Source: Henricia sp. BOLD:AAB3569 (Eukaryota; Echinodermata; Asteroidea; Spinulosida; Echinasteridae). Taken from it: a stretch of 64,000 nucleotides of DNA. The position numbers and the translations under genes were made by a program. The notes beneath the pieces are model-generated. The model had not been told where the DNA came from, did no database searches, and saw only the letters and a list, made by a program, of their open reading frames with translations. Position 1 is the first letter of the stretch, and each line of letters opens with the position of its first letter. Location: assembly GCA_037783545.1 (NCBI GenBank), contig JBBELK010000109.1, positions 372,001-436,000 on the forward strand, read 5' to 3'. Shown here piece after piece: positions 1,445 through 62,770 of this stretch.

Positions 1445-2654
1445 TGTGACCAAGCGACCTATAGAAGTTTAATTTCTGTGGTCGATTGTTCACGAACTTT
1501 AAAAGAATAGGGGTGCATATTTTAAATGTTTCAAAAATATTTCTCTCGGGAGTGAATTTAAAAAGAATACCTTAGCCGAGCGCTTTTCAAAAAGTAGGTG
1601 CCTGGCATAGTTGCGTTCGTTAGACCATGAGGGCGTCCTGTATCAGGAACGGGTCCCTTCCCATTCCTGCTCTCGCCGTCGCCTGAGAAAGATGTAGGCA
1701 GCAATTCATTTTGGTTCTCTGATTTGTCTGAGTTTGGCCTTTGGGTTTTCTACGTTACATTTCTGCCTTTGGCTGCCGAGTTCTCCTTGTATAATGGTTC
1801 ATGTTTAGACGACAGACGGTGTGCAGATTTGGCAGGATTCCTCTTGGTAAGAACGTATTTTATTATCGGTATACACATGTCGTGTATTATGTAGTTTCAC
1901 TTGTACGTAGTACATGTACATGCACATACTGTGTATGCTTTACGTGGTAAAAGTTTTATGAATTTCTGTATGGGGATTTTAATTTTGAAGTACATTCTCG
2001 TGTCAATTTATTATTAATCATACAATAACAAATACGATTGTGCACTTTTATAATAAATTTTTGGTGACAAATGCAGAAGTTTTAAAGCATTTCATGTGCA
2101 TTAAATTTTCTTCACAAAATATTTACTTATACAGTTGATGTTACACTAACTGCATGGAGTCATGGCTGGTGGCATTTTTCTAAACTGTTGCTCCAGCTAC
2201 AGTCTTAAGAGTGCTTGAGGTATGAAGTTTAGTTCAGTGAATATGTAATTGGAAATTGAAAGTGCAGAAATTGGAAACAATTTTGGGCCATACCTTGAAA
2301 TGTTTTATTTTAAATAATCGCCATAATACAATTTGAAACAGTAAGAGTTCATTTTCATTCAAGCATGCACTAGACCACTTGATAATTAATTTATATAAAT
2401 GAACTGATAGTACATGTATAATAATTAATGCTACAAAGTTTGTATTATACGTGTATTCATTATTTATTCTTTATTGCATTTCAGATCCCCCATCGCGATC
2501 TGGTAGCCTTGTTGTCATTGTTCATCTGATTGTAGTTTTTGCCTTGTAAATTTGTGAGTTGATTGGGCATATATGTATGTTTCAATAAACGGTAGTTGTC
2601 GGACCTGTATTTCCAAGCGAGTGTCCAGTTCATTTGTCGCTTCGCTCGGTTACA
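1445..2654 (+). repeat. Gypsy-1 5' LTR
   Basis: The LTR begins TGTGAC and ends GTTACA, near-perfect short inverted termini, and matches 9147-10356 base for base apart from one change I found. An AATAAA signal lies at 2584-2589, about 65 bases before the LTR end. A strong donor-like GTAAGA at 1848 and an acceptor-like pyrimidine tract ending TTTCAG at 2484 could define a 637-bp intron inside the LTR. Promoter and start site cannot be placed by eye. Confidence 0.95.
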
Positions 2655-2656
2655 CA

Positions 2657-2678
2657 TGGCGTAGTCGGCAGGGTTCGA
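2657..2678 (+). other. Gypsy-1 primer-binding site (tRNA-Ser)
   Basis: Two bases after the LTR, TGGCGTAGTCGGCAGG is the exact complement of the 3' end of metazoan tRNA-Ser (…CCTGCCGACTACG plus CCA). The next bases match with one mismatch. This marks where minus-strand cDNA synthesis starts. The tRNA assignment relies on my recall of the conserved tRNA-Ser acceptor sequence. Confidence 0.8.
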
Positions 2679-2796
2679 CAACTCAGGGGAATTAGAAATT
2701 GAAATACATACATGTGCAATACAATTAACAAGGCTACCAGAATTTATTCGCTGTCCTTTCATCTGACGGAACTGACTTTTAGTGACTGGAGCATGA

Positions 2797-2884
2797 GCTG
2801 ACGCGGATTCACCGGCTGACGCGGATTCACCGGCTGACGCGGATTCACCGGCTGACGCGGATTCACCGGCTGACGCGGATTCAC
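2797..2884 (+). repeat. 18-bp tandem repeat in Gypsy-1 leader
   Basis: About 4.9 copies of GCTGACGCGGATTCACCG sit between the primer site and gag. The copies look identical, which fits a recent expansion. Open frames across it on the minus strand simply follow the 18-bp (6-codon) period and are not taken as genes. The rest of the leader, up to 3420, shows nothing else I can name. Confidence 0.9.
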
Positions 2885-3420
2885 GTCCATTTGTGCTTGC
2901 CAGTATACTACCACAACAGAGGATACCGTCCAAGTCGAGCCATCAACCATGAAGGGGTACCTCGAGCATCAATTACAGTAATGTAAATGTTTTAATAATT
3001 TGCATTGGTATTATTGGTGAGAAGTGACAGGTTGACCATTGCCGTTTTTCCTAACACTATTGTGGATTTTAGAACGGAACCCAGTTTGAAATTAACGAAA
3101 ATTGTTCCGTAAACATTTGAGTGGTCCCGTGTGTTTTATGCACGAACTTAGATGCAGTGGTCAACTCCTCATTTCTTTCCAACTAATTTTGGCGTTAAAT
3201 ATTTTGGGTAGAATTTTATTCCCAGACCATCATTTTAGACATGTTTTGTATTTTGTGAGCTTACTTGCGTCGCTAGCAACTTAGCTTTGGGTTTGTCGGT
3301 TGCTTCAAACCATTGGCTCCTTGAAAATATTAGTGAAAGTTGATGGTCAGGAATTGAATTCTTACCAATAATTTTGTCAATTGTTGTTGGATTTGTATTT
3401 AACGATTTTTGGTGTTTAAT

Positions 3421-4446
3421 ATGGCTTCTAAGGAAGAGGTAGACGATTTACGTGCACATTTAGAAAAATTGACCATGGAATTAGAATCAGTTTCTGGATC
3501 GAAAAAGAAATCAAGTCCTGCTTACTTACTTATGCCGTCACAGAAGAAAATTAAGAGTTTTACGGGTAAAGAACAAGACATCACTTTAGAAGATTGGACT
3601 TGCGATATTATTGCCTCAATTGCATCTAGACCACTTGAAGAAGATGATAAAGTCCATTTTATGTTTCAACATCTTGAGGGCCCTGCTAGAGAAGAGGTTA
3701 AACTTCGCCCAGTAGAAGATCGTGATACTGGAGAAAAACTTTTGACGATTTTACATGAAGTTTTTGGTATTAAAGCAACAGGGGTGCAATTACAGCGACA
3801 GTTCTTTGAATGTAGGCAAAGGCCATCTGAATCACTTAGGGATTTCTCTCATCAACTCATGGAGACACTAAACAAAGTCCTTGTAAAATGTCCCCATCTG
3901 AACCACTCGAAGGGTAAATTGTTGTGTGATCAGTTTTCTGAAGGTGTTATCGACCAAGCCCTGAGGAAACACTTAAAGAAACAACTTCGTGATTGTCCCA
4001 GCATGTCCTTTCTTGAGCTGCGTCGAGAAGCTATTGAGTGGGCAGAGGAAGACGTCACTGATGTTAAGACCAAAGCGACTGTAAATGAGACCAAAGAAGT
4101 AACCAAACCTACCTCGGACCTTGTACAGATGAAGTCCTTGTTGGAAGATCAACGTCAAGTAATACGGGATCAGCGTGTTCAGATTGATCGTCTTCTTCAG
4201 GCTGTTCCAAAGAGTGCAGAAAGTACTACTGTTTCTTCGTCGTCTACCAAGCGTACAGGCACCAGTCTTCGACCTATATGGTATTGCGATTACTGTCGTC
4301 GGAAAGGCCATGTCATCTCTACTTGCTTCAAGAAACAACTGTCTGAGGCACAAGCTGAACTGGCAGATTATCGCAAAGCCGGAACTACTCGCAATACAGA
4401 AGATTGGCGTAAGGGTACAGGTCAAGCCCATGGAGCGTCAAACTAG
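3421..4446 (+). CDS. gag: Gypsy-1 Gag
   Basis: This 341-residue structural protein should form the virus-like particle and package element RNA. I start at the ATG at 3421; the frame opens slightly further upstream but without an ATG. A retrotransposon-gag-type helical region fills the first half (an LEDW-type motif near residue 57, a 'PAREEVKLRP' segment near residue 95). A single CCHC zinc knuckle, C-x2-C-x4-H-x4-C (CDYCRRKGHVISTC), lies near residue 290. The C-terminal 34 nt overlap the pol frame, which is -1 relative to gag. That suggests programmed -1 frameshifting or re-initiation, although no textbook slippery heptamer is visible. It is intact, with no stops. Confidence 0.93.
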   Translation: MASKEEVDDLRAHLEKLTMELESVSGSKKKSSPAYLLMPSQKKIKSFTGKEQDITLEDWTCDIIASIASRPLEEDDKVHFMFQHLEGPAREEVKLRPVEDRDTGEKLLTILHEVFGIKATGVQLQRQFFECRQRPSESLRDFSHQLMETLNKVLVKCPHLNHSKGKLLCDQFSEGVIDQALRKHLKKQLRDCPSMSFLELRREAIEWAEEDVTDVKTKATVNETKEVTKPTSDLVQMKSLLEDQRQVIRDQRVQIDRLLQAVPKSAESTTVSSSSTKRTGTSLRPIWYCDYCRRKGHVISTCFKKQLSEAQAELADYRKAGTTRNTEDWRKGTGQAHGASN

Positions 4447-4487
4447 TCCCTCCCACTGGTCGGAACCCAGAGGTGGGTAGGGTTAAT

Positions 4488-7400
4488 ATGGGTTCAGCCA
4501 ACACCGATAAGTCTAACCAGATAGGTCCTCGGGATCGTTTTGTTGGGGTTTCCCCAACACTGGAAGTGAAACTCGGAGGTGTTAATTTGCAGTGTCTTAT
4601 TGATACAGGGTCCATGGTTACAACAGTGACTGAAGAATTTTTCAGCCATTATCTCAAACCAGCTGGAGCTGATTTGTTCACCGAGGGACTTTGGTTGTCG
4701 TTGACCTGTGCATCTGGCTTGAACATCCCATACATTGGCTACCTAGAGCTTGACATTGAGGTACAAGGAGTCGTCTTGTTTAAAATGGGAGTAGTTGTTG
4801 TGAAAGATTCGGTTAACCCTGAGGTACGAGAGCAGAAGCGCTTAGTTCCTATGGTCTTGGGGATGAATGTTATATCACCAGCTATTGACAAGGGAGTCAA
4901 CATCATTTCAAGTATTGGTAACCAAAGAAGTAATTCTGCATCGGTGCATACAGTAGCCGACGACTCAGTTTTCATTCCTGCACAGTCATGGGTAACTGTC
5001 CAAGCGAGAAGTCGTGGTACTGGAACTCGATTTTCTGTTGTGGAACCTTTAAGGAATTCTCACAACCTTCGAGTTGGAGTCATGGTGGAGTCTACTTTAG
5101 TCGAGGTTATTTCTGGCCAGTCATTTCCGGTTAGAATGGTTAATTTTTCGACTGAGGGTGTAGTCATTCCCGGAAGGACTCCAATTGCCATTATGAGTGC
5201 TGTTCATTCAGTAAGGTCGGATGCTGCTCCAGAGGTTTTGTTCCAGCAAGTCTCTGTGAACGAGATCCAGGTATCTGTTTCCCGTTGCAAAACTGCTTCG
5301 ACTCCGGAGAGCAAAGACTGTCCTGCTGTTGACTTGTCAGAATTTGATGGTACTCCGGAACAGATGATTCAGATCAAGTCATTACTTCGCAAGCACCAAG
5401 ACATATTTGCTCAATCGAATTTAGATCTTGGGGAAACATCAACTGTCACTCATCGTATTGTCACTAAAACAGAAGAATCATCAACACAGCCTTATCGTCG
5501 TATACCGCCGAACCAGTTCAACGAGGTCAAGCAACACATTCGAGAACTTCTTCAGGTTGGGATCATATATGAAAGTCACAGTCCATACGCTGCTCCAATA
5601 GTCGTAGCTAAGAAGAAAGATGGCACCTTGCGTATGTGTGTTGATTATCGCAAGCTGAATGCCAACACTAAACGAGACGCCTTTCCATTGCCTCGTATTC
5701 TGGAATCCTTTGATGCCCCTATTGGTTCAAAGTTTTTTAGCACTTTGGATTTAGCCAGCGGTTATTATCAGATCAAGATGGATGAGCAAGATCGTAAGAA
5801 AACGGCCTTCACAACTCCCTTTGGCCTTTACGAATACAATAGAATGCCGTTTGGGTTGTGCGGAGCACCCGCCACCTTTCAGAGGCTTATGCAGAGATGT
5901 TTTGATGATTTGATTCTGCAGATGTTGTTGGTATATCTGGATGACATTCTTGTGTACTCTAAATCTTTTGGGGAACACATAAAACATCTTGACTTGGTGT
6001 TTAGTAGACTTAGGGCACATAACCTAAAGTTAAAACCCTCTAAATGTCATCTCTTTAAGAAACAGGTCTCATACTTGGGTCACATCCTCTCAGCAGAAGG
6101 GATTGCTACTGACGAAAGCAAGACGAAGGCAGTTACTGAATGGCCAGTCCCTCGAACGCTCAAGCAGTTGCGGACGTTCCTTGGATTCGCAAGTTACTAC
6201 AGGAGGTATGTCCCTGGATTTTCTAAGATAGCACGAATACTGTTTGCTTTGGTGGGAGAATGTCAGAAACGATCACCTGCCTACTTCCGCCAGAGATGGG
6301 ATGATGATTGTCAGCAGGCATTTGATCATCTAAAAAACAAGTTTGTGTCGATGCCAATCCTCGGATATGCAGACTTCACCAAGCCTTTTGTAGTGGAAGT
6401 GGATGCTAGCTTGGATGGACTGGGTGCTGTCCTTTCTCAAGAACAGGAAGGGAAGAGAAAAGTCATTGCTTATGCAAGCCGCACTCTTCGTCCGAATGAG
6501 AAGAACATGCAACGATACAGTTCTATGAAATTGGAGCTCTTGGCTGTCACCTGGGCCGTTACCGATAAATTTAAAGATTATCTTTATGGCAGCAGGTGCG
6601 AGATATGGACTGATAATAATGCACTTAGTCATTTGCAAACTGCACGACTAGATGCTACGGAGCAGAGATGGGTTGCCAAATTGAGTACCTTTGACTTCAA
6701 CTTGAAGTATCGGTCAGGACGTGAAAATGCCAACGCCGATGCTTTGTCACGCCAAGTGTCCAGAGACGATCAAGAGAAATGTTCAGACGACGATCTTCGA
6801 CATCTCTTACCTGTGACGTGTAGCAGTACACCTGTTCATCTACAGGCAGTTGGTACTTACGAGAATTCGGAGCTGGCTCCTGTGAGGAACTACCATGGAA
6901 TTTGTTCACAAGTCACAGTTTTTCCATCATACTCATTGAGCGAACTTCAGGAATTTCAACAGAAGGACCCTGTGATCAAAAGGTTCTTGGTGTATTTTAA
7001 GCAAGGCAGGATGCCTTTGCGGTCTGAAAGGAAGTCTGAGCCACACCATGTTCTGGTTCTCCTTCGACAACGAGATAAAATTGTAGAAGCTGATGGTGTC
7101 CTGTACAGAAGATGCATTATTCATGGAGTTGAGACAAGACAGCTTGTTCTTCCTGCCTGTCTGAAACCAAAGATTCTTTCGTCACTTCATGAGCAGAGTG
7201 GTCATCAGGGCGAAGAACGTACCTTCTCATTGGTACAACAAAGGTGCTATTGGCCAGGTGTATGGCGTGACGTGAAACAATGGGTACAACAATGTGAACG
7301 ATGTGCTGTGTCAAAACTACCCTCTCCCAAGCCTAAGAACCCTTTAGGGCATTTGATAGCTTCTCGTCCACTAGAAGTGATTGCAATTGATTTCACGTGT

Positions 7401-8789
7401 ATTGAACCTGCATCAGACCGTACAGAGAATGTACTTGTCATTACCGACATCTTTTCTAAATACACCATAGCAGTTCCGACTAAAGATCAAACTGCAGTAA
7501 CAACAGCTCGAGTTCTTGTGAATGAGTGGTTCGTGAAATTTGGAGTTCCTGAACGAATCCATTCTGACCAAGGCCGTCAATTTGAATCGGAGTTGATCTC
7601 ACAATTGTGTTCTTTGTACAATATTCGTAAGTCTAGAACAACAGCTTACCATGCTCAAGGGAATTCACAATGTGAACGCTTTAATAGAACAATGCATGAT
7701 TTACTTAGAACACTGACACAGAAACAGAAACGTCAGTGGCATAAACATTTAGGTGAACTTGTGTATTGCTATAACGCTACCATTCATCCAGCTACAGGAT
7801 TTTCCCCATTCTATTTGATGTTTGGCCGTGAACCCATCCTTCCGGTTGACATACTTCTCGGGAAACAGTACGATGCAGGTGAAGATTGGGTGAGCTTACA
7901 TAGACAACGCCTACAAGAGTCCTTTGAGATGGCTCAAAAGAAATTGGAGTCCACTGCCGAGTCACGTAAGGAAAGATATGACGCAAAAGCTAAACCATAC
8001 ACATTTAACATTGGAGATGTAGTTTACTTGAAACGACACCAATTTGCTGGGCGACATAAAATTCAAGATGCTTACTTACCTGATTTGTATTGTGTAGTTG
8101 GTCAGCCTGATTCAGGAAATTGTGTGTATTCTGTTAAGCTAGCAGATGGTTCTAGTAAGGTTAAGAATGTCCATTCTACCGAGCTGAAGCTTGTACCACC
8201 GAAAGATGTCAACACACATACTATCAGAAAAGAAACTAAGAAATCTGACCAAGATAACCAGGGTTCTGCTGTTGATTCAGTGGATGAAAGTAAACAACCT
8301 GCACAGAGTAATGTACAGAAAGATGACAGTAGTTCTGAGTCAGATCTAGAGATAATGGTGATTCCTGGTAATGACTCGCCTGTGAGAAGTACGTGTAACA
8401 TTAGACCAGTGAAGAGTCCATTGTGGCGTCGTAGACGCACTAAAAGAAAAACTGCTGGCAAACATGGTAATCCTTTCAAGTTACCTCGTTCTGCTGTTCG
8501 AGAACACCATGCACGTATACTTGACCCTTCAGAACATAGAGCCATAACTATTGAGTTAGGAATTGTCATATTTGCCATCATAAGTTTGTTTTGTGGGTAT
8601 CATGTAGCCAGTGGATTTCTAGGTGGATCACTGCATTATTTTGTTACTGGATTTTCTTTGTTAATGATACTTGTATTGCTTTTCCCTAATAGATGTAGAG
8701 AAGTAGTTGCGTTTGTGTGCCAATTACAGCCCTACATCGATTCGGTACCTGGCAAGGCAGAGCAGCATCCGTTGAAAACTTCAGTTTAA
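4488..8789 (+). CDS. pol: Gypsy-1 Pol polyprotein with C-terminal membrane segments
   Basis: The frame is open from 4413 and its first ATG is at 4488. Counting residues from codon 4473: an aspartic protease with LIDTGS (D44); reverse transcriptase with Y488-L-D-D; RNase H with VEVDAS (D644); an HHCC integrase zinc finger (H906, H911); and an integrase core with D973, D1032 and E1068, that is D-x35-E. A GPY/F-like module follows (IGDVVYLK region). The tail then has an acidic Ser/Asp-rich stretch, a basic RRRRTKRK patch and two hydrophobic segments near residues 1361-1381 and 1389-1409, unexpected for Pol. Synthesis probably needs a -1 shift out of gag in the 4413-4446 overlap. All catalytic residues are present and there are no breaks. 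Confidence 0.95.
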   Translation: MGSANTDKSNQIGPRDRFVGVSPTLEVKLGGVNLQCLIDTGSMVTTVTEEFFSHYLKPAGADLFTEGLWLSLTCASGLNIPYIGYLELDIEVQGVVLFKMGVVVVKDSVNPEVREQKRLVPMVLGMNVISPAIDKGVNIISSIGNQRSNSASVHTVADDSVFIPAQSWVTVQARSRGTGTRFSVVEPLRNSHNLRVGVMVESTLVEVISGQSFPVRMVNFSTEGVVIPGRTPIAIMSAVHSVRSDAAPEVLFQQVSVNEIQVSVSRCKTASTPESKDCPAVDLSEFDGTPEQMIQIKSLLRKHQDIFAQSNLDLGETSTVTHRIVTKTEESSTQPYRRIPPNQFNEVKQHIRELLQVGIIYESHSPYAAPIVVAKKKDGTLRMCVDYRKLNANTKRDAFPLPRILESFDAPIGSKFFSTLDLASGYYQIKMDEQDRKKTAFTTPFGLYEYNRMPFGLCGAPATFQRLMQRCFDDLILQMLLVYLDDILVYSKSFGEHIKHLDLVFSRLRAHNLKLKPSKCHLFKKQVSYLGHILSAEGIATDESKTKAVTEWPVPRTLKQLRTFLGFASYYRRYVPGFSKIARILFALVGECQKRSPAYFRQRWDDDCQQAFDHLKNKFVSMPILGYADFTKPFVVEVDASLDGLGAVLSQEQEGKRKVIAYASRTLRPNEKNMQRYSSMKLELLAVTWAVTDKFKDYLYGSRCEIWTDNNALSHLQTARLDATEQRWVAKLSTFDFNLKYRSGRENANADALSRQVSRDDQEKCSDDDLRHLLPVTCSSTPVHLQAVGTYENSELAPVRNYHGICSQVTVFPSYSLSELQEFQQKDPVIKRFLVYFKQGRMPLRSERKSEPHHVLVLLRQRDKIVEADGVLYRRCIIHGVETRQLVLPACLKPKILSSLHEQSGHQGEERTFSLVQQRCYWPGVWRDVKQWVQQCERCAVSKLPSPKPKNPLGHLIASRPLEVIAIDFTCIEPASDRTENVLVITDIFSKYTIAVPTKDQTAVTTARVLVNEWFVKFGVPERIHSDQGRQFESELISQLCSLYNIRKSRTTAYHAQGNSQCERFNRTMHDLLRTLTQKQKRQWHKHLGELVYCYNATIHPATGFSPFYLMFGREPILPVDILLGKQYDAGEDWVSLHRQRLQESFEMAQKKLESTAESRKERYDAKAKPYTFNIGDVVYLKRHQFAGRHKIQDAYLPDLYCVVGQPDSGNCVYSVKLADGSSKVKNVHSTELKLVPPKDVNTHTIRKETKKSDQDNQGSAVDSVDESKQPAQSNVQKDDSSSESDLEIMVIPGNDSPVRSTCNIRPVKSPLWRRRRTKRKTAGKHGNPFKLPRSAVREHHARILDPSEHRAITIELGIVIFAIISLFCGYHVASGFLGGSLHYFVTGFSLLMILVLLFPNRCREVVAFVCQLQPYIDSVPGKAEQHPLKTSV

Positions 8790-9146
8790 CTTCAGCGTTG
8801 GTAATAATCATTCAATTGTATTTGTTTGGACCAAGTCTTTTTATATGAAAACAACCATGAATAGGAACTTTTAGTTCAAATTTGGGGTTCTTGCCCCAAA
8901 CATGGAAAGATTGTTGATGACTTGTATATTTTTGGTCAAAATACATTTGAGATCTAACCCTGATGTAGTTCTGAGGTGATCAGCTGATGCAAAGGAATTG
9001 TAAATAGTGTAAAATAGTACAGACATCGCAAAATTTGGCAAGATGCAGTAAAGTATTTAAATCGTATTAAAATAGGTTCGGACACTACTAGTACTGATAT
9101 TAAATTATAAAGTATTTATTGCATAAATATTTTTCCTTGGGGTGTG
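8790..9146 (+). other. Gypsy-1 3' untranslated region
   Basis: A 357-bp AT-rich stretch between the pol stop and the 3' LTR. No ORF or env-like remnant is visible. Only a short CCTTGGGGTG run, a poor polypurine tract, precedes the LTR. Confidence 0.7.
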
Positions 9147-10356
9147 TGTGACCAAGCGACCTATAGAAGTTTAATTTCTGTGGTCGATTGTTCACGAACT
9201 TTAAAAGAATAGGGGTGCATATTTTAAATGTTTCAAAAATATTTCTCTCGGGAGTGAATTTAAAAAGAATACCTTAGCCGAGCGCTTTTCAAAAAGTAGG
9301 TGCCTGGCATAGTTGCGTTCGTTAGACCATGAGGGCGTCCTGTATCAGGAACGGGTCCCTTCCCATTCCTGCTCTCGCCGTCGCCTGAGAAAGATGTAGG
9401 CAGCAATTCATTTTGGTTCTCTGATTTGTCTGAGTTTGGCCTTTGGGTTTTCTACGTTACATTTCTGCCTTTGGCTGCCGAGTTCTCCTTGTATAATGGT
9501 TCATGTTTAGACGACAGACGGTGTGCAGATTTGGCAGGATTCCTCTTGGTAAGAACGTATTTTATTATCGGTATACACATGTCGTGTATTATGTAGTTTC
9601 ACTTGTACGTAGTACATGTACATGCACATACTGTGTATGCTTTACGTGGTAAAAGTTTTATGAATTTCTGTATGGGGATTTTAATTTTGAAGTACATTCT
9701 CGTGTCAATTTATTATTAATCATACAATAACAAATACGATTGTGCACTTTTATAATAAATTTTTGGTGACAAATGCAGAAGTTTTAAAGCATTTCATGTG
9801 CATTAAATTTTCTTCACAAAATATTTACTTATACAGTTGATGTTACACTAACTGCATGGAGTCATGGCTGGTGGCATTTTTCTAAACTGTTGCTCCAGCT
9901 ACAGTCTTAAGAGTGCTTGAGGTATGAAGTTTAGTTCAGTGAATATGTAATTGGAAATTGAAAGTGCAGAAATTGGAAACAATTTTGGGCCATACCTTGA
10001 AATGTTTTATTTTAAATAATCGCCATAATACAATTTGAAACAGTAAGAGTTTATTTTCATTCAAGCATGCACTAGACCACTTGATAATTAATTTATATAA
10101 ATGAACTGATAGTACATGTATAATAATTAATGCTACAAAGTTTGTATTATACGTGTATTCATTATTTATTCTTTATTGCATTTCAGATCCCCCATCGCGA
10201 TCTGGTAGCCTTGTTGTCATTGTTCATCTGATTGTAGTTTTTGCCTTGTAAATTTGTGAGTTGATTGGGCATATATGTATGTTTCAATAAACGGTAGTTG
10301 TCGGACCTGTATTTCCAAGCGAGTGTCCAGTTCATTTGTCGCTTCGCTCGGTTACA
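9147..10356 (+). repeat. Gypsy-1 3' LTR
   Basis: Same length and termini as the 5' LTR, with T at 10052 where the 5' copy has C. It is followed directly by GTAG (10357-10360), the right target duplication. The AATAAA at 10286-10291 would terminate element transcripts. Confidence 0.95.
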
Positions 10357-19021: not shown

Positions 19022-20150
19022 CTGCTGCTTGTGGAATGGGATGAGAGAAATATTGTATAGTTTTGGCAGTGAAAAACAGACTTGTTGGTGAAACATGTAG
19101 TTTAGTTCAACTGTGCATGCATTACACACTGGGGCCTCACTGCTCACAGGAATTTGTGGGTAACAATGGCTTTTTGTCACGGATGTCCTTGTGAATTTTC
19201 TGCCCTGAAAATTATCTGTACATTCTAATGCAGTTCTACAACAAACTCTATTCAACTTAACTAAACAAAGAATGAAAATTTTGCCAGATCAGGAGATGGA
19301 ACAACTGGACGTACAACTCTTAAGCTGAGCTGGGTTACGTGATTTGGGTTTCTGCGCCTACGTCATTGACCAGGCACCCAATATTTATCAATTTCAATCT
19401 GATATGAACGGCGGGCTTTGGAGAGTCCAACCACACAATAGTTTTTCATCTTCATACCGTTTTAAACAGCTAGAATCCCCCCGTCCACATTTTTAAAGTT
19501 TTTCTGTTTATCATGGAGGTGTATGTGTCTACAACACCATCACAACTTGTTTTTCACAAAAAATCGACAGGCTTTTGCTTAAAACGTAAAGCAGTTCCGA
19601 CCCTCTTCACCCGAAATTCTGAAACGCTCGAGGTCACTTGGTTTGTTTATCAACAGAGTTTTGACGTCATCCTGAGAAACATACAGAAGCAAAATGTTTA
19701 TCATGCCTGTTTTGTCCTTGTAATTCAAAATACAAACGTGAAAAACACTTCATGTAATATAACAACAATCTACTATTACCCGTTTTGTGAAAAAACGGTG
19801 AAATTGTGGCTCACAATGAAGCTCTTTTAAAGTAAATACTGGTGCATTGTGACGGGTGGTTTTGTCACGGAACGAACGGCATTCACAGCGGTCTGTGTAC
19901 AGCATGGAACGGTTCCCTGCGGGCCGTAGCCCCACATCGGCCGGTACAAGTTAGAATGAGCGACTCATTTTTCTCTCTTTTGGTAATATAGAAAAGAACA
20001 TTTTTCTGCTCTTTTTTTTCATAGTGTCTGGTAAAACATACAACCATGCAGCTACTGGGCATATCTCTGGTTTTTTGGACCAACAAAATTCTTCAAAAAA
20101 CACCATCTAACCATGGAGCTATAAAAGGAGACGGTTTTCCAAGTGCCAGA
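19022..20150. other. No recognisable gene
   Basis: Probably an intron or upstream flank of the minus-strand ZC3HAV1/PARP12-like gene. Short open frames here have no domain pattern. Confidence 0.4.
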
Positions 20151-20503
20151 TCTGGGGCATGGTAGCCAGAATAAGTCTGACCAAGGTCCTTGTGGTTTGG
20201 CTCTGCCAAGAAAGCTGGAGCCGAACCTGTCAGCGGCTCATAAAAGTTAGCCAGCTACCGGTGTGGCCCTTTTTAAGACAGCTCAAGTTTCCACCCCTTT
20301 CTTGCCCCCTGATTGGCTTATTTCCCCATAGATACAAGTTCTGCCAATCAGGTAGTTGAAAAAAGTAATTGCACTAGGATAGGCATTTTGGTCAGGTCAC
20401 TAACCTCGCCATGAAACGATTTTGCCTTTGGTGAGAAGACATGTCTTGGAGTTTCCGTTGTCCCCTAAGACAAGTTTTTGTGCAAGTTTGATCTTCAATT
20501 TAA
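20151..20503 (+). repeat. Gypsy-2 5' LTR, left part
   Basis: Homologous to 32831 onward in the 3' LTR, beginning TCTGGGGCATGG. It stops at TTAA (20500-20503), where the nested transposon enters, and resumes at 24919. The outermost 18 bp of the LTR are absent. Confidence 0.9.
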
Positions 20504-20938
20504 AGGGCCCCTGAAATGCTCGACCATCGGTTGTCTACTTTATTGTTAAATATTATCTATTTATAATATAAAACATGTTCCTTTGTGGAAAATGGTGCCC
20601 CAGTCCTAAAAAGTGTCTAATCTCAGATTTTAAGAAAACGCACCCCTGCGCTCGTTTCGTTGCTATGGCTTCAGCGGCCAAACAAGTGACGTACGTTTAG
20701 GAAAACAAAGCACAGTCGAGTTTAGTCTGGTTTCGGATACGTCGCGCCGCGGCCTCACTGACCGGGGCTGACTGGCTAATCCCCCATGCCACGCTAGCAA
20801 GCTTCGCGGTCTCGTCGCTGCCACACACGGCATGCACATCGCGTGGATTCTACTAGCCGTGTGTGCACAACGAGTCTGTGAGCGCGAGCGAGTGGCTGAA
20901 AAGCACCGAAATAAACGTCGCTCACGTCCGTGGAAATC

Positions 20939-22174
20939 ATGTCAAAAAGAAGTCGAACGGCAGATTATTTGCCGTCTTCATCCTCGGGAAAACGACGAGA
21001 GTGGAAACGATACCCCAATAGTTTAGATTCAGAAACTTCCGGATGAAATCGGCGGCGATTTCGAGTTACATGTAGGTGCCCGCCGCGCCCGTACATGCAT
21101 GTTCGAGCCGGTAAGAAATTATGACACGGACGATCTTCAGGCGGAGACAAAGATCAAGAAAATCGCCTCGAAAACAACAACTGGTAGGCCTACGAAATTT
21201 CATTATTCTTTACTTGTTGGAGTCCAATTTACAAACACAAATTTTGGTGGTAAACGGTGAAAATGGACGTTAAAAAATCGCCCCTTACTCGACAGACTCG
21301 CCACTGACTAACTCGCCCCAGCTAACTCGTCCCTCTATTCGAGGTGCATACATGTAGGCGGATACCGTATTCATTTTTATGTTAAGATAATATTTTTGAA
21401 AAGGAGTATTTTTCCTTCAAAATGACTTTATATCAAGTTACTAGGCTAGTAAAAAATTAGAAGCGGTGATAATACAGCTTTTTCACCTTTTAATTAAGCC
21501 AGTCTCATCATGTTTTGTACACATATTACGGTCAACCAGACAGGCTACCCATTTTGTTTCATGTACAATTAATACATGTACATGTATTCCAAAGGAAAGA
21601 TAACAACGTTTGCTTCATAATTTGTTTTATTATAGAAACCAAACACGTTTGCCACTTCTTACCAATGTAAATGCACCAGCAAAGTGTAAATTTAGTCTAA
21701 AAAAACATTTGTCTGTGTATATTGTAGGTGCACATGTGGACATTGCCAGGCAATGCCTACAGTTCAGGAAAGCCGGTGTTGCCAGGAAATTGGTGCTGTT
21801 CAGCAGATGACCGAGTCCTTCGTTCCTGCCATTGACTGCATCACCGATCATGCGGATTTTCAGCCTTCGTGCCTCAACAGAACTGTGCTGGATATTGCAT
21901 ATACGGGCTACCGAGACCAGTATGGTGGACGTCGAAGAAATTATGTCCCAGAGAACCAGTACAAATTTTAAAATATTTTGCATTTAGAAATTGTCTCGGA
22001 ATATTAACTAGAACCACATGCACATTGTACAAACAATTAGAATGAAAAATTGCCAAACAGAATTTGTGCGCAGTCACATGTACATGTAGTGATTATGGAA
22101 CAACATTATTTTGAAACTTACTGTAGATTTTACCTTTTTATTTTTTTTACAACAGGAAGTACCGCCATACTGGC
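20939..22174 (+). pseudogene. P2X7-C-terminal-like protein gene in the TTAA transposon
   Basis: Three candidate exons. Exon 1 (20939-21183) starts MSKRSRTADYL, changes frame near 21035, and carries RTCMFEPVRNYD before a GTAGGC donor. Exon 2 (21728-21958) is clean, with CTCGHCQAMPT, then CCQEI, CITDHADFQPSCL and YRDQYGG; this Cys-rich C-x-C-G-x-C … CC … C … C pattern is that of the zinc-binding P2X7 C-terminal (ballast-like) domain, widespread as a stand-alone domain in invertebrates. Its GTACAA donor and the AACAG acceptor at 22155 join in phase to give a KYRHT exon 3, cut off after about 19 nt by a MITE end. One frameshift and the MITE make it a pseudogene. Its location just inside the left terminal repeat suggests the transposon carried it. 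Confidence 0.6.
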
Positions 22175-22186
22175 GAGCCTGTGCCT
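22175..22186 (+). repeat. Solo right end of the hairpin MITE
   Basis: CGAGCCTGTGCC just before the TTAA at 22187 resembles the right terminus of the complete MITE next to it (22296-22308), as if two copies had been tandem and one had lost its body. Confidence 0.5.
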
Positions 22187-22190
22187 TTAA

Positions 22191-22308
22191 GGCAGAGGCT
22201 CGTCAGCAATGCACACACACGGGAAGTTCGTGCCACGAATAGCAGCTCCATGCTGTGTATTTCGTGGCACGAATTTGGTGCGCGAGCATTGCTGACGAGC
22301 CTGTGTCC
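22191..22308. mobile_element. 118-bp TTAA hairpin MITE, complete copy
   Basis: Nearly the whole element is a fold-back: GGCTCGTCAGCAATGC at the left pairs with GCATTGCTGACGAGCC at the right, and TTCGTGCCACGAA is inside. TTAA flanks it at 22187-22190 and 22309-22312. It lies within the 4.4-kb transposon and interrupts the P2X7-C-like gene. Confidence 0.85.
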
Positions 22309-22784
22309 TTAATACTGGGGTTTTTGTCAATGTATCATCCATCGAAATAATTTAAATAAAAATCATATTTTTCGTGCAGTTGGTGTTTTTTTCCTCATTT
22401 TGTATGGGTTAATAGCTACCCGTTAAATTATTTTAAATATATTATATATGCAAATTTTTTCACGACTGCTGAACATCATAGATTTTTAGTTCTCACTATA
22501 AACGGTAGTTATGACTGATTACGAGTATTTTATTTGAAGCATTGTAGATTCAACTTGAATTGGCTTGATATTACGTTTACAAGTAATGTCATTGTGCTAA
22601 GACAAATAGATTTTCCTAATGAGATGAAATGGGGCATGTCCGGGAATACATGTAGTTCAGTTTCATAAATAAAGTGTTCATTATGACTGGAATTTTATGG
22701 ACTATGGAGAAATCACTGAACATGAGTCAATCAAGATGCAAAACATTTACACTCATTCTAGGTGTTGACTGTGAATCACTAGAC

Positions 22785-23012
22785 CCCGTTCATGCACTTT
22801 AGCAATGGATGTTCTTTAGTCTTTATGACTACTAGTACTCCTTCTTTGGAGCCAACACTGTTTGCCTTGAAACTGCTCGAAAGGCTGGCTATTAGGTCTT
22901 CTTTGTTTGGAAATGGATGCTTGGAGGCAAGAGATGGTGGTGGCTTGACAAATTCTGCTTGCACTTGAAGTCGGCAACGTCGGATGTTTTCACCCAGCAA
23001 GGTCTTCACATA
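22785..23012 (-). pseudogene. Probable internal exon of the THAP-type gene
   Basis: An open minus-strand segment of about 75 residues (YVKTLLGENIRR … FPNKEDLIASLSSSF … VLVVIKTKEH). An acceptor-like CTCAG lies at its start, and it ends in a stop near 22780. It reads like real protein, without low complexity, and lies on the same strand as, and downstream of, the THAP exon, so I assign it tentatively to the transposon's protein. I do not recognise a catalytic DDE motif. Confidence 0.35.
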
Positions 23013-23090
23013 GTCTGAGTTTTCAATGAAAGGTAAAGTTCATGAATAAATAAATTTTAAGAGAAAAATGTAATGCACCTATCAATTGTA

Positions 23091-23412
23091 TGACGCACTA
23101 TACGACCCCCGGGAATGGTGCGTCACTTTACCGAGGTGCGGCACTTTCTCATGTACCATGACGTACCCCTGTGTCACAAAAGTGACGGACCTTTGCCACA
23201 CAATGACGGTACCCTCGGTCAATTTTGTGACGTACCATTGATTGATTCTGACGGACTAAGAGTTTTTGTTGTTCGTAAAATGATGTACACTGTGACGCAC
23301 CCAGGTAAAGTGACTGACATTGACGCACCCCTTCGTCAATTCTGTGACAGACCAAATTCTGCCGCTGACGTACCCTCCGTCACAAATGTGGTGGTAAATG
23401 ACGCACCTCTGA
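23091..23412 (+). repeat. Degenerate 21-24-bp repeat based on TGACGYACC
   Basis: TGACG-type words followed by a base and ACC or GACC recur at about 23091, 23159, 23183, 23204, 23228, 23249, 23293, 23321, 23345, 23366 and 23399, mostly 21-24 bp or a multiple apart. The open frames crossing it on both strands (VRHF, DVPL, DGPL repeats) follow from this periodicity. Confidence 0.7.
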
Positions 23413-23433
23413 CAGTTGCATAAATTCACAGTT

Positions 23434-23552
23434 GCAGAGGCTCGTCAGCAATGCGCGTGTGCCAAATTCGTGCCACAAACTATGCAGCTCCATAGCAAAG
23501 GCATGGAGCTGTGTATTTCATGGCACGAATTTGGCACGCACGCATTGTTGTC
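23434..23552. mobile_element. TTAA hairpin MITE, second, damaged copy
   Basis: The same family as 22191-22308, with GCAGAGGCTCGTCAGCAATGC at the left and matching GGCACGAATTTGGCACG arms. The right end is altered after GCATTG, and no clear TTAA pair flanks it. Confidence 0.75.
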
Positions 23553-24289
23553 GGATGTCATGGGAGTCGTCTTCTTACCAAATCTAGCTATTTCCTTGAC
23601 CGGTTTGACTGTGGCTTCCCCTCCTTTGAACTTTCATCATAGGCTTCAGTACCTAATATTGATGAAAAAAAACAGTTTGTCATTGCTTGCTATAAATTAT
23701 ATGTAGATCATTGTAACTGCACAAGATTAATTACTAGCTGTCAAATATTAATTTTGTTTTTTATATTTATTTATTATTGTGCTTCCGACTACATCAAGTA
23801 CATGTATGGGGTATTAAAACGATTGCAGTAATATACATGTACATGTACATGTAATAACATCATTCATATGAACTGCATGCACAACATACCCGAACATATA
23901 CCGACGGGACAACTCGACTCCCGACAACAAGCGTGTTTTTTTCGCCGTGAAAATGTTCCCAAAAATGCTTACTCAAACAAATTAGCAGTCACATTGGGGC
24001 CCCTGACTGTTCATTTTCCCAAAAAACAGCGTGTTTTGTTTGAAGGTTACACATTTTTGATGCCATGACTGTCCAAAAAACCAAGGCTTCACCACACACG
24101 CTTGACAGCCATGACACCGACAGTATATACAGCAGCGTGTGTTGGGCGAGTGCGTGACCGAATCTCGGCATGACCTGACCGGGCGATTCTGTCACACGTG
24201 CACGCTGCTGGTCTACGTGCTGCGTGCCTGGCCAGAATGCCTGAACGGTACGAGACTTACCCGAATTTTCTCCCGCTTCGCATACGCTC

Positions 24290-24598
24290 CTCTTTTTTCT
24301 TGTTTCTTCTGGATTTTCTTAGATGTTACAAATACACTAGGTGTCGCATCTGCGTTGAGTAATTGTTTGGTTTTCATGCCAAGTTTGGCTGTAAAACCGG
24401 TGTCGAAACACGACGGTCCAAGATGATCGCTGCAGATTGAGTACTCCGCCTACATGTAGGTCCGCTCCACTTTGCCCTCGTCTGTCTAACTTTCGGAGTC
24501 CAAATCTTCCGAAAGTGTGGGTCCGTGGGAAAACGGTGAAAACTCACATCATCCTGGTAAGTGTTGTTGCAACCAGCAGCAACGTCCCGAACAACCAT
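24290..24598 (-). pseudogene. THAP zinc-finger domain of a transposase-like protein
   Basis: Starting at the ATG at 24598 the minus strand reads AAGCNNTYQDDVSFHRFP, then RKIWTPKVRQTRAKWSGP. After a frame change near 24450 it reads YSICSDHLGPSCFD, then a DATPSVF end. This is the order of a THAP domain: C-x-C lead, HRFP-type motif, invariant W, C-S-D-H zinc ligands and a proline near the AVPTIF-like end. The first expected Cys is missing and the frame is broken, so it is dead. THAP domains bind DNA and occur at the N-terminus of P-element- and Kolobok-type transposases. It starts just inside the right terminal repeat and faces the plus-strand gene. Confidence 0.65.
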
Positions 24599-24922
24599 TT
24601 TAACTTACGTTAGATTTTTAATGGAAAAACAATCACGACTTCGAGACAACTTCGAGAAAAACGTAGCGTGGTATATGGACACATGCAGCGTGGGACAGAC
24701 CGGTCAGTGAGCTTTGTTTTCCTAAACGTACGTCACGATTATGCAAATATTTATGTTAATGACCAAGTCCACCCGGGGGCGGAGCCTTCCTCCCCCAACA
24801 CTTCAAACGTTGTTTAAACATAATTCCGCTCGTTAATAAAAGTCAAATATGATTAAATATTGCTTAATAAACAATACTCTATACATTTCAGCAATAAAAC
24901 AAGCATTTCAGAGACCCTTTAA

Positions 24923-26674
24923 GTCTTCTCACCCTTTCCATTGTGCTCTGCTGCTACAGGTAAGCTGCCATTTGTTATTGTATATTATAATTCTCAATGT
25001 ATCTACTCAAGTTAACTGCCTGATAAAACGAGATTAGTTGTCGGACATACCACTTTAGATTTTGTTCAAGCTAAACACACGAACAGTGTTTGATACGAAG
25101 CCGAAGTTATAAATAAGCTTTTATCTCAGGATACTCGAGTATTTGCATTGTTCTAATTGTTTATTTAGTTTAGAGTTTTAATAATTAAGATTCCGCTATA
25201 TTATTTCGGACACAGCGGCTCGTGTTTATTCAATCTAGAAGTGTGAACTTGCCGCCAACTGATGAAATATGTATTTTATTTGACATTTCATTCAAGTTGC
25301 CAGAATGTCCATTCACGCTTTCCTGTATTTTGACACTATAGATTTATTTTGGCCATGTACAGAGCGAGTTTACACATCCCTTTACACATGTAGTGCACCT
25401 TTAAGCGAGCGCATGCAGTGTACCTTTAATCGGTATCATTCCCCAAACAAACAGCTGGTTTTTAGCCTATCCCCATTAATTTACTCCTTCTGATTTTATT
25501 GCATACCCATGTGTTGCATGTGGGCCAATGTACCACAAGTTGGCCTTGATGGGCTCATCACCCACCCTGTTTGCCACTGACCATTAATCACTTAACTCCA
25601 GAACAAGTGGTCACTGTCCACTGTGAAATGTTGTTGCCATAGAGACATTCCCCAAAGTTATTCCTGGGTGGACATTTCGTTTGTTATTGATTATGACCCA
25701 GGGTGATTCCCGAATTGTGCATTGTTGTTGATGCACAAACTGTATTAGCGTTAAGATTTGTTTGGACTTTACTCGGCTAAATTTAATATTTTCTTTCGCG
25801 CACTTTTTATTTTAAATTAGTTTAGTTTCATTTATTTATAATCAAAATGGTGTTGACCCTAAGAAAGAAACGATTTTGGCTTTGGTGAGAAGACAGTCTC
25901 GGAGTTTCCGTTGTCCTCCAAGACAAGTTTTTGTGTCAGTTTTATCTTCAATTTAAGTCTTCTGACCCTTTCCATTGTGCTCTGCTGCTACAGCAAGCAC
26001 ATCCATCGTCCACAGGCATCGTTTTAGGGGAGATGACCCGGTTCGTCTCTTCGACTCCCCCTTTCCTATTCTACCTTGGGACCGTTGGACCTATCTTGAC
26101 TAGACGGCGACTTGTCCGGATCGGAGCCCAACCCGAGCCACACTTTCAGGTCAAGTTCAAGTCAAGATCAAGTCAAGTGCAGCTAAGCCAGTTTCTTTTG
26201 TTATTGTTTTCTGTTCAACCAATTACTGTATTGTTTGTTTCACTGAAGTTTACTCAACAATCCCCATGAATATTATTGTGTATTACGTTAGATCTCGGCT
26301 GTGACATGTTTTGATAACACATTGAATTGATTACATTTCGGCCCTTTTATTTTGTTCTTTGAGTTACCGGCTTGTGACTTTATTCAAATTTGCGATCCTT
26401 GATTTCTGAATTGACCGATTATCGTTTATTCTCATAATTACATGTTCATCCCGAGATCTCTTGTTGTGAGATCTTTTACGACGATTTGCCATTGTGTTTA
26501 ACTCCATTGTATTTCCTGTTGTTTTGATTGATGATAATAATAATTACCGTGAGTCAGAAGGATCAACACAAAATCAGCTCTCCGTCTGTTTTTCTTTATT
26601 GAGCACATTTCCTTTTAACACGAACCAGCCTGTCAGAGGATTACCCCAAAAATTAACCCGAGACAGGTGTGACA
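24923..26674 (+). repeat. Gypsy-2 5' LTR, right part
   Basis: Continues the LTR after the nested transposon and ends GTGTGACA. It includes a CTACAG|GTAAGC donor-like site near 24960, the second copy of an internal direct repeat ending CTACAGCAAG near 25995, and AT-rich sequence. Short ORFs inside it recur in the 3' LTR without codon conservation and are not genes. Confidence 0.9.
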
Positions 26675-32812: not shown

Positions 32813-34884
32813 TGTCAGAACCTGTTACCATCTGGGGCATGGTAGCCAGAATAAGTCTGACCAAGGTCCTTGTGGTTTGGCTCTGCCAAGAAAGCTGGAG
32901 CCGAACCTGTCAGCGGCTCATAAAAGTTAGCCAGCTACCGGTGTGGCCTTTTCTTGCCCCCTGATTGGCTTATCTCCCCATAGATACAAGTTCTGCCAAT
33001 CAGGTAGTTGAACAAAGTAATTGCAGTGCATATTGCTAGGATAGGCATTTTGGTCAGGTCACTCACCTCGCCATGAAACGATTTTGCCTTTGGTGAGAAG
33101 ACAGTCTTGGAGTTTCCGTTGTCCTCTAAGACAAGTTTTTGTGCAAGTTTGATCTTCAATTTAAGTCTTCTCGCCCTCTCCATTGTGCTCTGCTGCTACA
33201 GGTAAGCTGCCATTTTCATTGTATATTATAATTCTCAATGTATCTACTCAAGTTAACTGCCTGAGAAAACGAGATTAGTTGTCGGACATACCACAGATTT
33301 TGTTCGAGCTAAACACACGAACAGTGTTTGATACGAAGCCGAAGTTATAATTTTTATCTCAGGATACTCGAGTATTTGCATTGTTCTAATTGTTAAATTA
33401 GTTTAGAGTTTTAATAATTAAGATTCCGCTATATTGTTTCGGATACAGCGGCTCGTGTTTATTCAATCTAGAAGTGTGAACTTGCCGCCAACTGATGAAA
33501 TATGTATTTTATTTGACATTTCATTCAAGTTGCCAGAATGTCCATTCACGCTTTCCTGTATTTTGACACTATATTTATTTTGGCCATGTACAAAGCGAGT
33601 TTACACATCCCTTTATACATGTAGTGCACCTTTCAGCGAGCGCATGCAGTGTACCTTTAATCGATATCATTCCCCAAACAAACAGCTGGTTTTTAGCCTA
33701 TCCCCGTTAATTTACTCCTTCTGATTTTATTGCATACCCATGTGTTGCATGTGGGCCAATGTACCACAAGTTGGCCTTGATGAGCTCACCCACCCTGTTT
33801 GCCACTGACCATTAATCACTTAACTCCAGAACAAGTGGTCACTGTCCACTGTGAAATGTTGTTGCCATAGAGACATTCCCCAAAGTTGTTCCTGGGTGGA
33901 CATTTTGTTTGTTATTGATTATGACCCAGGGTGATTCCCGAATTGTGCATTGTTGTTGATGCACAAACTGTATTAGCGTTAAGATTTGTTTGGACTTTGG
34001 CTAAATTTAATATTTTCTTTCGCGCACTTTTTACGTTAAATTAGTTTAGTTTCATTTATTTATAATCAAAATGGTGTTGACTCTAAGAAAGAAACGATTT
34101 TGCCTTTGGTGAGAAGACAGTCTCGGAGTTTCCGTTGTCCTCCAAGACAAGTTTTTGTGCCAGTTTTATCTTCAATTTAAGTCTTCTCACCCTTCCCATT
34201 GTGCTCTGCTGCTACAGCAAGCACATCCATCGTCCACAGGCATCGTTTTAGGGGAGACGACCCGGTTCGTCTCCTCAACTCCCCCTTCCATATTCTACCT
34301 TGGGACCGTTGGACCTATCTTGACTAGACGGCGACTTGTCCGGATCGGAGCCCAACCCGAGCCACACTTTCAAGTCAAGTTCAAGTCAAGATCAAGTCAA
34401 GTGCAGCTAAGCCAGTTTCTTTTGTTATTGTTTAACCAATTACTGTATTGTTTGTTTCACTGAAGTTTACTCCACGATCCCCATGAATATTATTGTGCAT
34501 TACGTTAGATCTCGGCTGCGACATGTTTTGATAACGCATTGAATTGATTACATTTCGGCCCTTTCATTTTGTTCTTTGAATCACCGGCTTGTGACTTTAT
34601 TCAAATTTGCGTTCCTTGATTTCTGAATTGACCGATTATCGTTGATTCTCATAATTACATGTTCATCTCGAGATCTATCGTTGTGAGATCTTTTACGACG
34701 ATTTGCCATTGTGTTTAACTCCATTGTATTTCCTGTTGTTTTGATTGATGATAATAATAATTACCGTGAGTCAGAAGGATCAACACAAAATCAGCTCTCT
34801 TTTTCTTTATTGAGCACATTTACTTAAACACGAACCAGCCTGTCAGAGGATTACCCCAAAAATTAACCCGAGACAGGTGTGACA
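32813..34884 (+). repeat. Gypsy-2 3' LTR
   Basis: 2072 bp, TGTCA at the start and TGACA at the end, preceded by the polypurine tract AGAAGGGGAGAA (32801-32812). A 127-bp segment occurs twice inside it, at 33075-33201 and 34091-34217. The first copy runs into GTAAGC, a donor; the second ends in a pyrimidine-rich CTGCTACAG, an acceptor. A 1016-bp intron between them is therefore possible. Confidence 0.92.
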
Positions 34885-42949: not shown

Positions 42950-45900
42950 TCAGAGTCCAATATATGTCAAAGTTGATAGTGAGGCTTGGCAGAAGACGAC
43001 TGATAAGAGTGTGTAGAAGACGAAGGGTGGGCTGTATGGACGGACACGTGATGAAGAGGTGAGTAATCGTGCCCCTCTCGTCGCACCACGCACAGCTGGA
43101 AGATATATTCGGGTTGAGATGATGAAGGACCGGAAGTGAAGGTGTAGAACGTTGTGGGGAAGTTTAAACTGTACATCTCCTTCTTTTTTGGACGTCAGCG
43201 ACGTGTAGACTGCCCTCCATGGTATATTATGGGAAGGCGAGAAAAAACCAAGTCTATGCCACGGTGTTAAAGTAGTAGGCGGTAGATCGTTGATGTTTCG
43301 GTTGAAGGCATTGTAGAGTGACTTTGAGGGAGATGCGAGAGCATCTGTGTCCGTGTTGATAAGAACTTGGCCAGGAGAAGGAGGGTGCAGAGGAATGTCA
43401 CTGAGAGAGACTGGAAAAAGAAGTCCGTTATCGGGGTTGAAGATTGTGGAGAATGTTGATGATATGGCGTGGTGCAGGCGAGAGAGGTCTTTCTCCAGCA
43501 GACGAGCGGAAAAAGGGCGAGAAAACGTTGAAGACAGGTGAAGACAGTTAGCAGAAAGCCACTCTCCGGTGTCGAGGTTGATGAGATCTTTGATGAGTTT
43601 GATGTCACTGGCCCAGAGTCGGCCTGCGAAGACCGCGCCGCCTGGTAAAGCATCGATAAGAGGTGGGTACTTTAAGGGGAAGTTGATGACATGGTTGAAT
43701 GAGTCCGGAGGTGTTTCGATTTGAGCTCCGAGGATCATCCAGGCACGCAGTACCTCACCATAGAAAACAGTTAGACTTGTAAACAATTTGGGTTCGAGGG
43801 GAAGTAAAAAGAGTTGATAACCGAGGTCGTAGTGTTTGTACAGGCGCAGGTAAGAATCCATCATAGAGTAACAGAGGTGCGAATTGAATTGGAAGTAACG
43901 TTGGAGGAGTTTGAACTTGAAAGTGAGGCTGCGTGCCCGGAGACAAGCTAGACCAAGCCCACCTTTATCACAAGTTTGGTACAAAGTTTGTTTTTTAAGG
44001 AGATGACGTTTATTGGACCAGACGAAGTCGACAAGCAAATCTTGAAGTTCGCCAAGGATAGTATCAGGGCAGGAGAGAACTGGAAGGGAATGAAAAACTT
44101 TGGAAGCGGCAACTTGATTGGCAATGAGGATTTTACCTTTAAATGACAGGGTGGAGGAGAGGGGTCTCCATCGGGAGAGTGTTCTAGTCAGTTTTTCTTT
44201 GCATTTTTCCCAGTTTTGTTTGTTATAGTTATTACTGTTACCAAGGTGAACTCCAAGAAACACGAGACCTTGGTTATTCCATTAAAAGTTAAGTGGCTTG
44301 TCGCTTCGTCCGGTCCAAGAACCGGCCCATAAACCCTGGGATTTTCGTAGTTTAGACTTGCAGCAGAGGATTTGCTGAAGAGACTGTACACTCTTTTAAT
44401 GGTTTCAAACCCCGAATCGGAGGTGACAAAAATAGTAATATCATCTGCATAGGCCGATACCGAGCAATATTTTTCCGAGTGGGGCACGAGGAAACTTTCC
44501 CCCTGTAATTCATTTCTAAGGCGATTTAAGAAAGGTTCAATTGCAAGCGAGTACAGCAGCCCCGAGAGAGGGCAGCCCTGTCGAATACCTTTTTCGAAGG
44601 CAAAGGGTGCGGTCAAAGAGCCGCACACCTTAATGTGGCTCTTTGCGCCGCTGTACAAAAGATTGAGAAACAGTAAGAAGTTGTCCCCGAAACCCATGGC
44701 TCTCATTGTATTAAAAAGGTAGGCGTGGTCAACATTGTCGAACGCTTTGCGCTGATCAAGGTTGACCACGCCAAGAGGAATATCATTAACATTACAACAA
44801 TTAATAACATCGCGAATTAAATTTAAGTTATCATAAATCGTGCGTCCAGGAACGCAATACGACTGGTCTTCAATAATTATATTACCAATAAATTGTTTCA
44901 GTCTGTTGGCAAGCAGCTTGGCAAAAATCTTGTAATCGGTGTTGAGGAGGGAGACAGGACGCCAATTAGAAATATCGTTAAGGTCACCTTTTTTCGGTAT
45001 AAGAGTTATAACTGCTTTGAGAAAGGAGCGGGGAAGGGAACCGAGTGGCCAGAATGAAATAAAAAAATTCGGAAGTGAGACCGTCAAAACCGGGCGTTTT
45101 ATTTTTACCAAGCTGCTTGACAGCACAGTCCAATTCCTCAGGACGCAGAGGCATATTAAGGTCCTCCGCATCCTGAGGGGTTAAGCTAGAAATATCAGAC
45201 AAAAGAGGCCCGAGGGCGCTCTCGTCAGTATGAACGCGACTATAAAGATCGGCATAGAAATCGCGACAGTGTGCTTTTATTTCATCAGGGTTTTCTGTAA
45301 TTGAGCCTTCAGGAAGGCGGATACTAGAGAGAGTTTTGGATTGGGAGTGGTTTTTTTCAAGGTTGAAGAAGTAAGTCGAACTGGTGTCTGTTTCATTGAG
45401 ATGTTTAAAGCGAGATCTGACGAGAGCGCCCTGAGCTTGTTTTTTAAGAAGAAGATTTAGCTCATTACGCTGTTCATCAAGAACTTTTTTAGTTTTAGGA
45501 GTAATGTCTGGCGCAGACTGAAGTTCTTGGATGTGAGAATTTATGCGAGAGAAGGTTGAGCGTTTTTCTTGTGCAATTTTCGAACTATAGGTTTGGGTTA
45601 TAGTTTTAATTTGGGCCTTGCCCAAATCCCACCACTTGCATAAGCTATCGAATAGGGGTTTTTCATTTTGCCATTGGGACCAGAAGATGTGAATAATTTC
45701 GCGGTAATTCTGATCGTCAAGAAGAGAGTTATTAAAATGCCAGTAGGCGCTCCCTCTATGCTGAGGGGAAGGGAGTTTTAAGCAAAGTTGGACAGCAGAG
45801 TGGTCCGATAAAGAACAGGGAAGAATTTTACAGGTACGAGTGGTGGGTAAGATATGTAAAAACGGTCAAGTCTAACTTGGGAGTAACGATCAGAAGCAAA

Positions 45901-46530: not shown

Positions 46531-46541
46531 GAATGTTGGAA

Positions 46542-52783: not shown

Positions 52784-52828
52784 CAGGGATCGACGTAAGG
52801 ATGAGATAAGCGCCGAACCAGCTGCGAA

Positions 52829-62584: not shown

Positions 62585-62770
62585 ACTAATGACGTCATCA
62601 TGACGTCATCACGTGTCAGATTAAAGGGGCATGAAGTTTTATCAATTAAATATTCAAAAATCATTAAAAAAATCAACCGTTTGACCTACGATCTTGATTC
62701 CTTCGCCATATACGATGACTAACAAGGGTCTTTGAGATGCGCACACCCCTTGACCTTGGACCTCGTTTCC
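62585..62770 (+). repeat. Composite repeat, third copy, leading into the satellite
   Basis: Closely matches 57155-57340, including TTAAAGGGGCATGAA, ATCAACCGTTTGACCTACG and a CRE pair at 62590 and 62601. The 130-bp satellite begins where this block reaches the CTATTGGTC segment. Confidence 0.85.

Follow-up and report, generated by a model that had tools for sequence, protein, structure and literature searches.

We analyzed 64,000 nucleotides from the echinoderm Henricia sp. BOLD:AAB3569 (GenBank assembly GCA_037783545.1, contig JBBELK010000109.1, positions 372,001 to 436,000 of the forward strand); "the window" below means this whole stretch. At 20504-24918 lies a broken transposon, inserted at a TTAA and holding two gene remnants that face each other, one with a THAP domain and one resembling KolX, the partner protein of certain Kolobok transposons. 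An earlier note, made from the sequence alone, had described the element as a TTAA transposon with THAP and P2X7-C-like accessory genes. Its main features are as follows (LTR, long terminal repeat).

20504-24918, no strand: transposon of 4,415 bp with tips 5'-AG ... CT-3', between the TTAA copies
20500-20503, no strand: left TTAA target-site copy; the flanks joined with one TTAA correspond to the empty site 33161-33164
24919-24922, no strand: right TTAA target-site copy
20504-20520, plus strand: left terminal inverted repeat, matching the right end at 15/17 positions
24902-24918, minus strand: right terminal inverted repeat
20686-20714, plus strand: left subterminal inverted repeat with a perfect 26-nt core at 20686-20711, 182 bp from the tip
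24708-24736, minus strand: right subterminal inverted repeat, likewise at 182 bp from its tip
21696-21968, plus strand: KolX / P2X7-C ballast remnant, a 91-residue open frame holding an exon that probably starts at 21728
24330-24598, minus strand: THAP domain remnant (PF05485) in two frames, starting with the ATG at 24598 and ending in a DATPSVF box, which is AVPTIF-like
33161-33164, no strand: the one TTAA at the site without insertion (empty site); it lies in the sister LTR, 32830-34884

A repeat finder paired the terminal arms together with their TTAA (20500-20520 with 24902-24922; 21 nt, 90%) and the subterminal arms (20686-20714 with 24708-24736; 29 nt, 97%, the 26-nt core being perfect). 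The window has 338 TTAA sites; among all their pairings at a distance of 60-8000 bp, this element was the sole one with inverted ends of at least 15/17; among block-shuffled windows, 19 of 20 contained no such pair and the remaining one contained a single pair. Even when up to 3 mismatches are tolerated, the 26-mer of the subterminal repeat has two sites only in the window (100 shuffles gave a mean of 0.00), and on both sides its distance from the first base of the TTAA is 186 nt. Between tip and repeat, the left and right DNA showed no local similarity above chance (score 16; 500 shuffles, mean 17.5, maximum 31). The exact TTAA duplications, inverted ends and perfect 26-bp subterminal repeat of the earlier note were thus all recovered, as was its converging gene order (21696-21968 on the plus strand against THAP from 24598 down to 24330 on the minus strand).

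The window also contains the empty site, which is new relative to that note. The flanks joined with a single TTAA align from 32830 onward over 1364 columns at 94%, across the junction without a break. The duplication is 4 bp, with two TTAA copies flanking the element and one at the sister site. By window self-comparison, the joined flanks match the 33161 region because both belong to LTRs of one retrotransposon: the left flank 20150-20503 and the right flank to 26674 make up one LTR, split by the transposon, and 32830-34884 is its partner. These LTRs are about 2.1 kb long, and the several separate pol frames between them contain reverse transcriptase, RNase H and integrase domains, in an order from which we take the retrotransposon to be of the Gypsy type. 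The left LTR is without the bases TGTCAGAACCTGTTACC, which stand just before 32830 at the sister LTR.

The two LTRs of a retrotransposon are identical at the time of its insertion, and therefore the transposon arrived later than its host retrotransposon. Once the element and one TTAA are removed, alignment of the LTR pair shows 51 differences in 2045 aligned sites (a Kimura distance of 0.025) and 12 gap events, so a small number of exon mutations could postdate the insertion. The target lies within a 127-bp stretch present twice per LTR as a direct repeat, so placed that uninterrupted copies of the target stretch also stand within the split LTR and a second time in its sister:

25867-25993, 33075-33201 and 34091-34217: copies of the 127-bp direct repeat
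from 20413: fourth copy, split by the transposon

The left gene was identified through KolX. The Kol0 lineage of Kolobok encodes a DDE transposase and KolX, which has the P2X7 ballast fold and is similar to residues 476-595 of human P2X7; P2X7 itself is traced to the fusion of a P2X4-like gene with KolX (PMC9587614). We composed an artificial KolX-like seed, which found 254 real proteins, and the 120 relatives listed among them made up a KolX profile. PF20478 is present in 119 of these 120, and the named proteins among the listed matches come from sea cucumbers, bivalves, corals, fish and others. The profile matched the 21696-21968 frame with E = 2.3e-25, the next of the 2024 open reading frames (ORFs) of the window reaching 0.57; the best ORF per shuffled window (n = 20) scored at most 12.5 bits, against 86 bits for the remnant. 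Of the zinc site, the remnant retains CxCxxC, CC and the C that follows. It stops at QYKF, before the AYRQF...PSC half with which its relatives continue ((T)AYRQF...PSC), and the KolX exon is therefore truncated, without its C-terminal half. By itself the 91-residue frame had no Pfam match up to E = 1; joined to neighboring pieces by X, it had P2RX7_C as its sole Pfam match up to E = 10. After weak Pfam and human P2X7 comparisons (scores below), the KolX profile decided, and at the level of sequence comparison we regard the assignment of the left remnant as KolX / P2X7-C-like as settled.

With the single KolX exon as query, nothing was found in the protein collection and chance matches only in the PDB sequences. 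Foldseek/VIA matches besides P2X7 (haloacid dehalogenases, a thermolysin fragment and others) were at noise level and uninformative on KolX function. Loci bearing KolX were sought in viral contigs (70 pattern matches, 0 confirmed) and in genome contigs (34 pattern matches, 0 confirmed). Upstream of the remnant lies a weaker candidate:

20939-21200, plus strand: candidate for the first exon or exons of KolX, with an ATG at 20939 and a stop at 21044-21046; a weak prediction

An FEP motif near 21102, in another frame than the ATG, is similar to the PYxFEP box in the KolX consensus; the region was not among the window matches of the KolX profile. Two alike hairpin-forming repeats of about 120 bp also lie inside the transposon (22186-22312 and 23434-23553), and their 20-nt end was found nowhere else in the window at up to 3 mismatches. 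The first of them is flanked by TTAA and may be a nested miniature inverted-repeat transposable element that breaks the end of the KolX gene.

In the right gene, the minus-strand frame 24377-24604 matches PF05485 above its cut-off (E = 3e-06) and contains the initial half of a THAP domain, and the following frame carries SICSDHLGPSCFD...ADATPSVF. Joined with X, the two cover positions 2-87 of the 87 of PF05485 with E = 2.7e-12; the frame changes within the domain, and the right gene is broken. According to PMC6004289, a Kolobok transposase usually combines a DDE domain and an H2CH motif with a THAP domain that bears an AVPTIF box at its C terminus. Therefore, the THAP domain here most likely formed the DNA-binding N terminus of the transposase and not a second accessory gene. 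Of the two accessory genes in the earlier note, KolX stands as a partner gene, and THAP is better read as the head of the transposase. One further frame may belong to the same gene:

22782-23039, minus strand: 86-residue open frame, possible last transposase exon, with no Pfam family match

Neither remnant extends past the TTAA borders. The earlier note had named as damaging to its proposal that the exons continue outside as a host gene; this was not the case, the DNA beyond the two TTAAs being that of an LTR whose sister copy has the site empty. There is a related possibility, that a THAP gene and a P2X7-like gene of the host were caught by chance inside a large TTAA element. THAP domains do occur in host proteins, and the P2X7-C domain is also found in the host protein P2X7. 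However, both remnants begin a few hundred bp inside an end and point inward, the DNA outside is an LTR with an empty sister copy, and THAP and KolX are both parts described for Kolobok elements (PMC9587614, PMC6004289). We consider such a chance capture of cargo extremely improbable.

We conclude that the element very probably belongs to the Kol0-type Kolobok DNA transposons, as a degraded and non-autonomous copy. It has (i) the 4-bp TTAA duplication, (ii) 5'-RR (AG) and YY-3' (CT) termini, (iii) a THAP domain, and (iv) KolX with its ballast domain, the last by the profile match of E = 2.3e-25 to an exon that is truncated and below the Pfam cut-off. A P element leaves an 8-bp target-site duplication, and the empty site here shows the 4-bp TTAA. 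A piggyBac-type element, non-autonomous and by chance equipped with a KolX-like gene, would account for part of the evidence, since TTAA duplication is common to Kolobok and piggyBac, and piggyBac families with a KolX-like protein have been reported (PMC9587614). However, RR/YY termini distinguish Kolobok from piggyBac (PMC9587614), the ends here are AG/CT where piggyBac has termini other than RR/YY, and the THAP domain suits Kolobok (PMC6004289). We regard the piggyBac explanation as very unlikely. In the 18 ORF stretches scanned, Pfam gave no match to a piggyBac transposase.

Several results weigh against the assignment to Kol0-type Kolobok. Pfam recognized no DDE core in 18 distinct ORF stretches, drawn from 96 ORFs of at least 30 residues; the scan covered 10 stretches at E <= 1 and 10 at E <= 10, two of them shared, with Pfam models and without a Kolobok-specific DDE profile. 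Besides THAP, it returned only sub-threshold, chance-like matches to L31, Tertiapin, DurB-like and Nterm_IS4. Because no DDE core was recognized, Kolobok membership rests on the ends, THAP and KolX and not on a transposase tree. The profile search on joined exons that the earlier note had proposed succeeded for THAP but not for P2RX7_C, which scored 13.7 bits, below the cut-off of 23.5. Direct alignment to human P2X7 was weak, with a score of 51 that was reached by 4 of 5000 shuffles and tied by one other of 1276 window ORFs. Among 214 candidate homologues of the THAP gene pieces, none had E <= 0.001, and blastn found no second copy of the element elsewhere in the window, the sole match being 24 nt long (E = 0.006).

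Among the closest known systems is Kol0 (Kolobok0), of the type of Kolobok-1_XT, which like our element has TTAA, RR/YY ends and two genes, one of them KolX with the ballast (PMC9587614). Unlike Kol0, the present copy is broken, measures only 4.4 kb and has no recognized DDE core. Symmetrical subterminal repeats are not mentioned for Kol0 in the available text of PMC9587614, and a limited search of the open literature found no paper combining "Kolobok" with "subterminal inverted repeat". Full-length Xenopus Kolobok (XKol; PMC6004289) shares the AG ends (Table 5 there), TTAA and a THAP domain with an AVPTIF box (DATPSVF here), but is 6.8-13.9 kb long and differs in its tip sequences. The same zinc cysteine domain occurs in the C-terminal ballast of P2X7 and in Nanor (PMC7016195, PMC9587614); those are host proteins, domesticated KolX according to PMC9587614, whereas here it is the remnant of a transposon gene. 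Ballast domains outside vertebrates and outside the P2X architecture have also been described (PMC7016195), in a text whose available part has 0 hits for "transpos".

The earlier note was right to see the P2X7-C-like protein as a partner of a Kolobok-like TTAA transposon, although this had already been published (PMC9587614). Its belief that the pairing with THAP was undescribed does not hold. In the available texts, THAP has 0 occurrences in PMC9587614 and the name KolX 0 occurrences in PMC6004289; Kol0 with KolX is in the former and the Kolobok THAP domain in the latter, and therefore the pairing is in print across the two papers.

By the mechanism we propose, intact relatives would encode a THAP-DDE transposase, read from one end, that would recognize the tips and the subterminal repeats. 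As expected from the family, it would excise the element and paste it into TTAA by cut and paste. The second gene encodes KolX, a zinc-binding protein whose domain the P2X7 receptor later acquired as its C-terminal ballast. An intact relative would have mobilized the present copy in trans, placing it in one of the retrotransposon's LTRs. Movement in trans is probable since no catalytic core is recognized and half of KolX is gone, yet the LTR is fairly young. The copy looks internally deleted. We rejected the argument that frameshifts alone prove the copy dead on arrival; the truncated KolX and the absent DDE core make the better argument.

That the subterminal repeats lie equally far from their tips points to a second site of recognition. 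Each end may then be bipartite, with a 17-bp tip and a 26-29 bp subterminal repeat at 182 bp on both sides, unrelated DNA between them, and the repeat bound by the THAP domain of the transposase. P elements offer an analogy for a THAP domain binding a subterminal repeat, and we put this arrangement slightly below an even chance. The role of KolX is the least certain part; only tentatively do we suggest a transposase co-factor with zinc-dependent binding in the transposition complex.

The copy is otherwise an ordinary dead transposon. It provides an independent, well-bounded example, with its empty site in the same window, for the published claim of the P2X7 ballast in Kolobok, and its symmetrical subterminal repeats are a concrete candidate for a transposase binding site. 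If the ends are indeed bipartite, their parts could be studied separately in a system with the partner protein from which the P2X7 ballast arose.

The window holds other repetitive elements. A second LTR retrotransposon at 1444-10356 has 1211-bp repeats that are 99.9% identical, an uninterrupted pol frame of 1458 residues and a gag-like frame of 347 residues matching Pfam PNMA (E 1.8e-09); it is probably a very young insertion. On the minus strand, 42950-48561 contains a reverse transcriptase frame (RVT_1, E 1.3e-33, at 44191-45180) with neighboring frames and an upstream proline-rich frame, presumably a non-LTR retrotransposon. Also on the minus strand, 50765-53512 consists of broken frames, of which the one scanned (50794-52242) gave weak RNase H matches below the Pfam cut-offs; this region resembles a DIRS-type retrotransposon. 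Finally, a tandem array with a unit of about 130 bp occupies 62747-64000 and extends past the end of the window.
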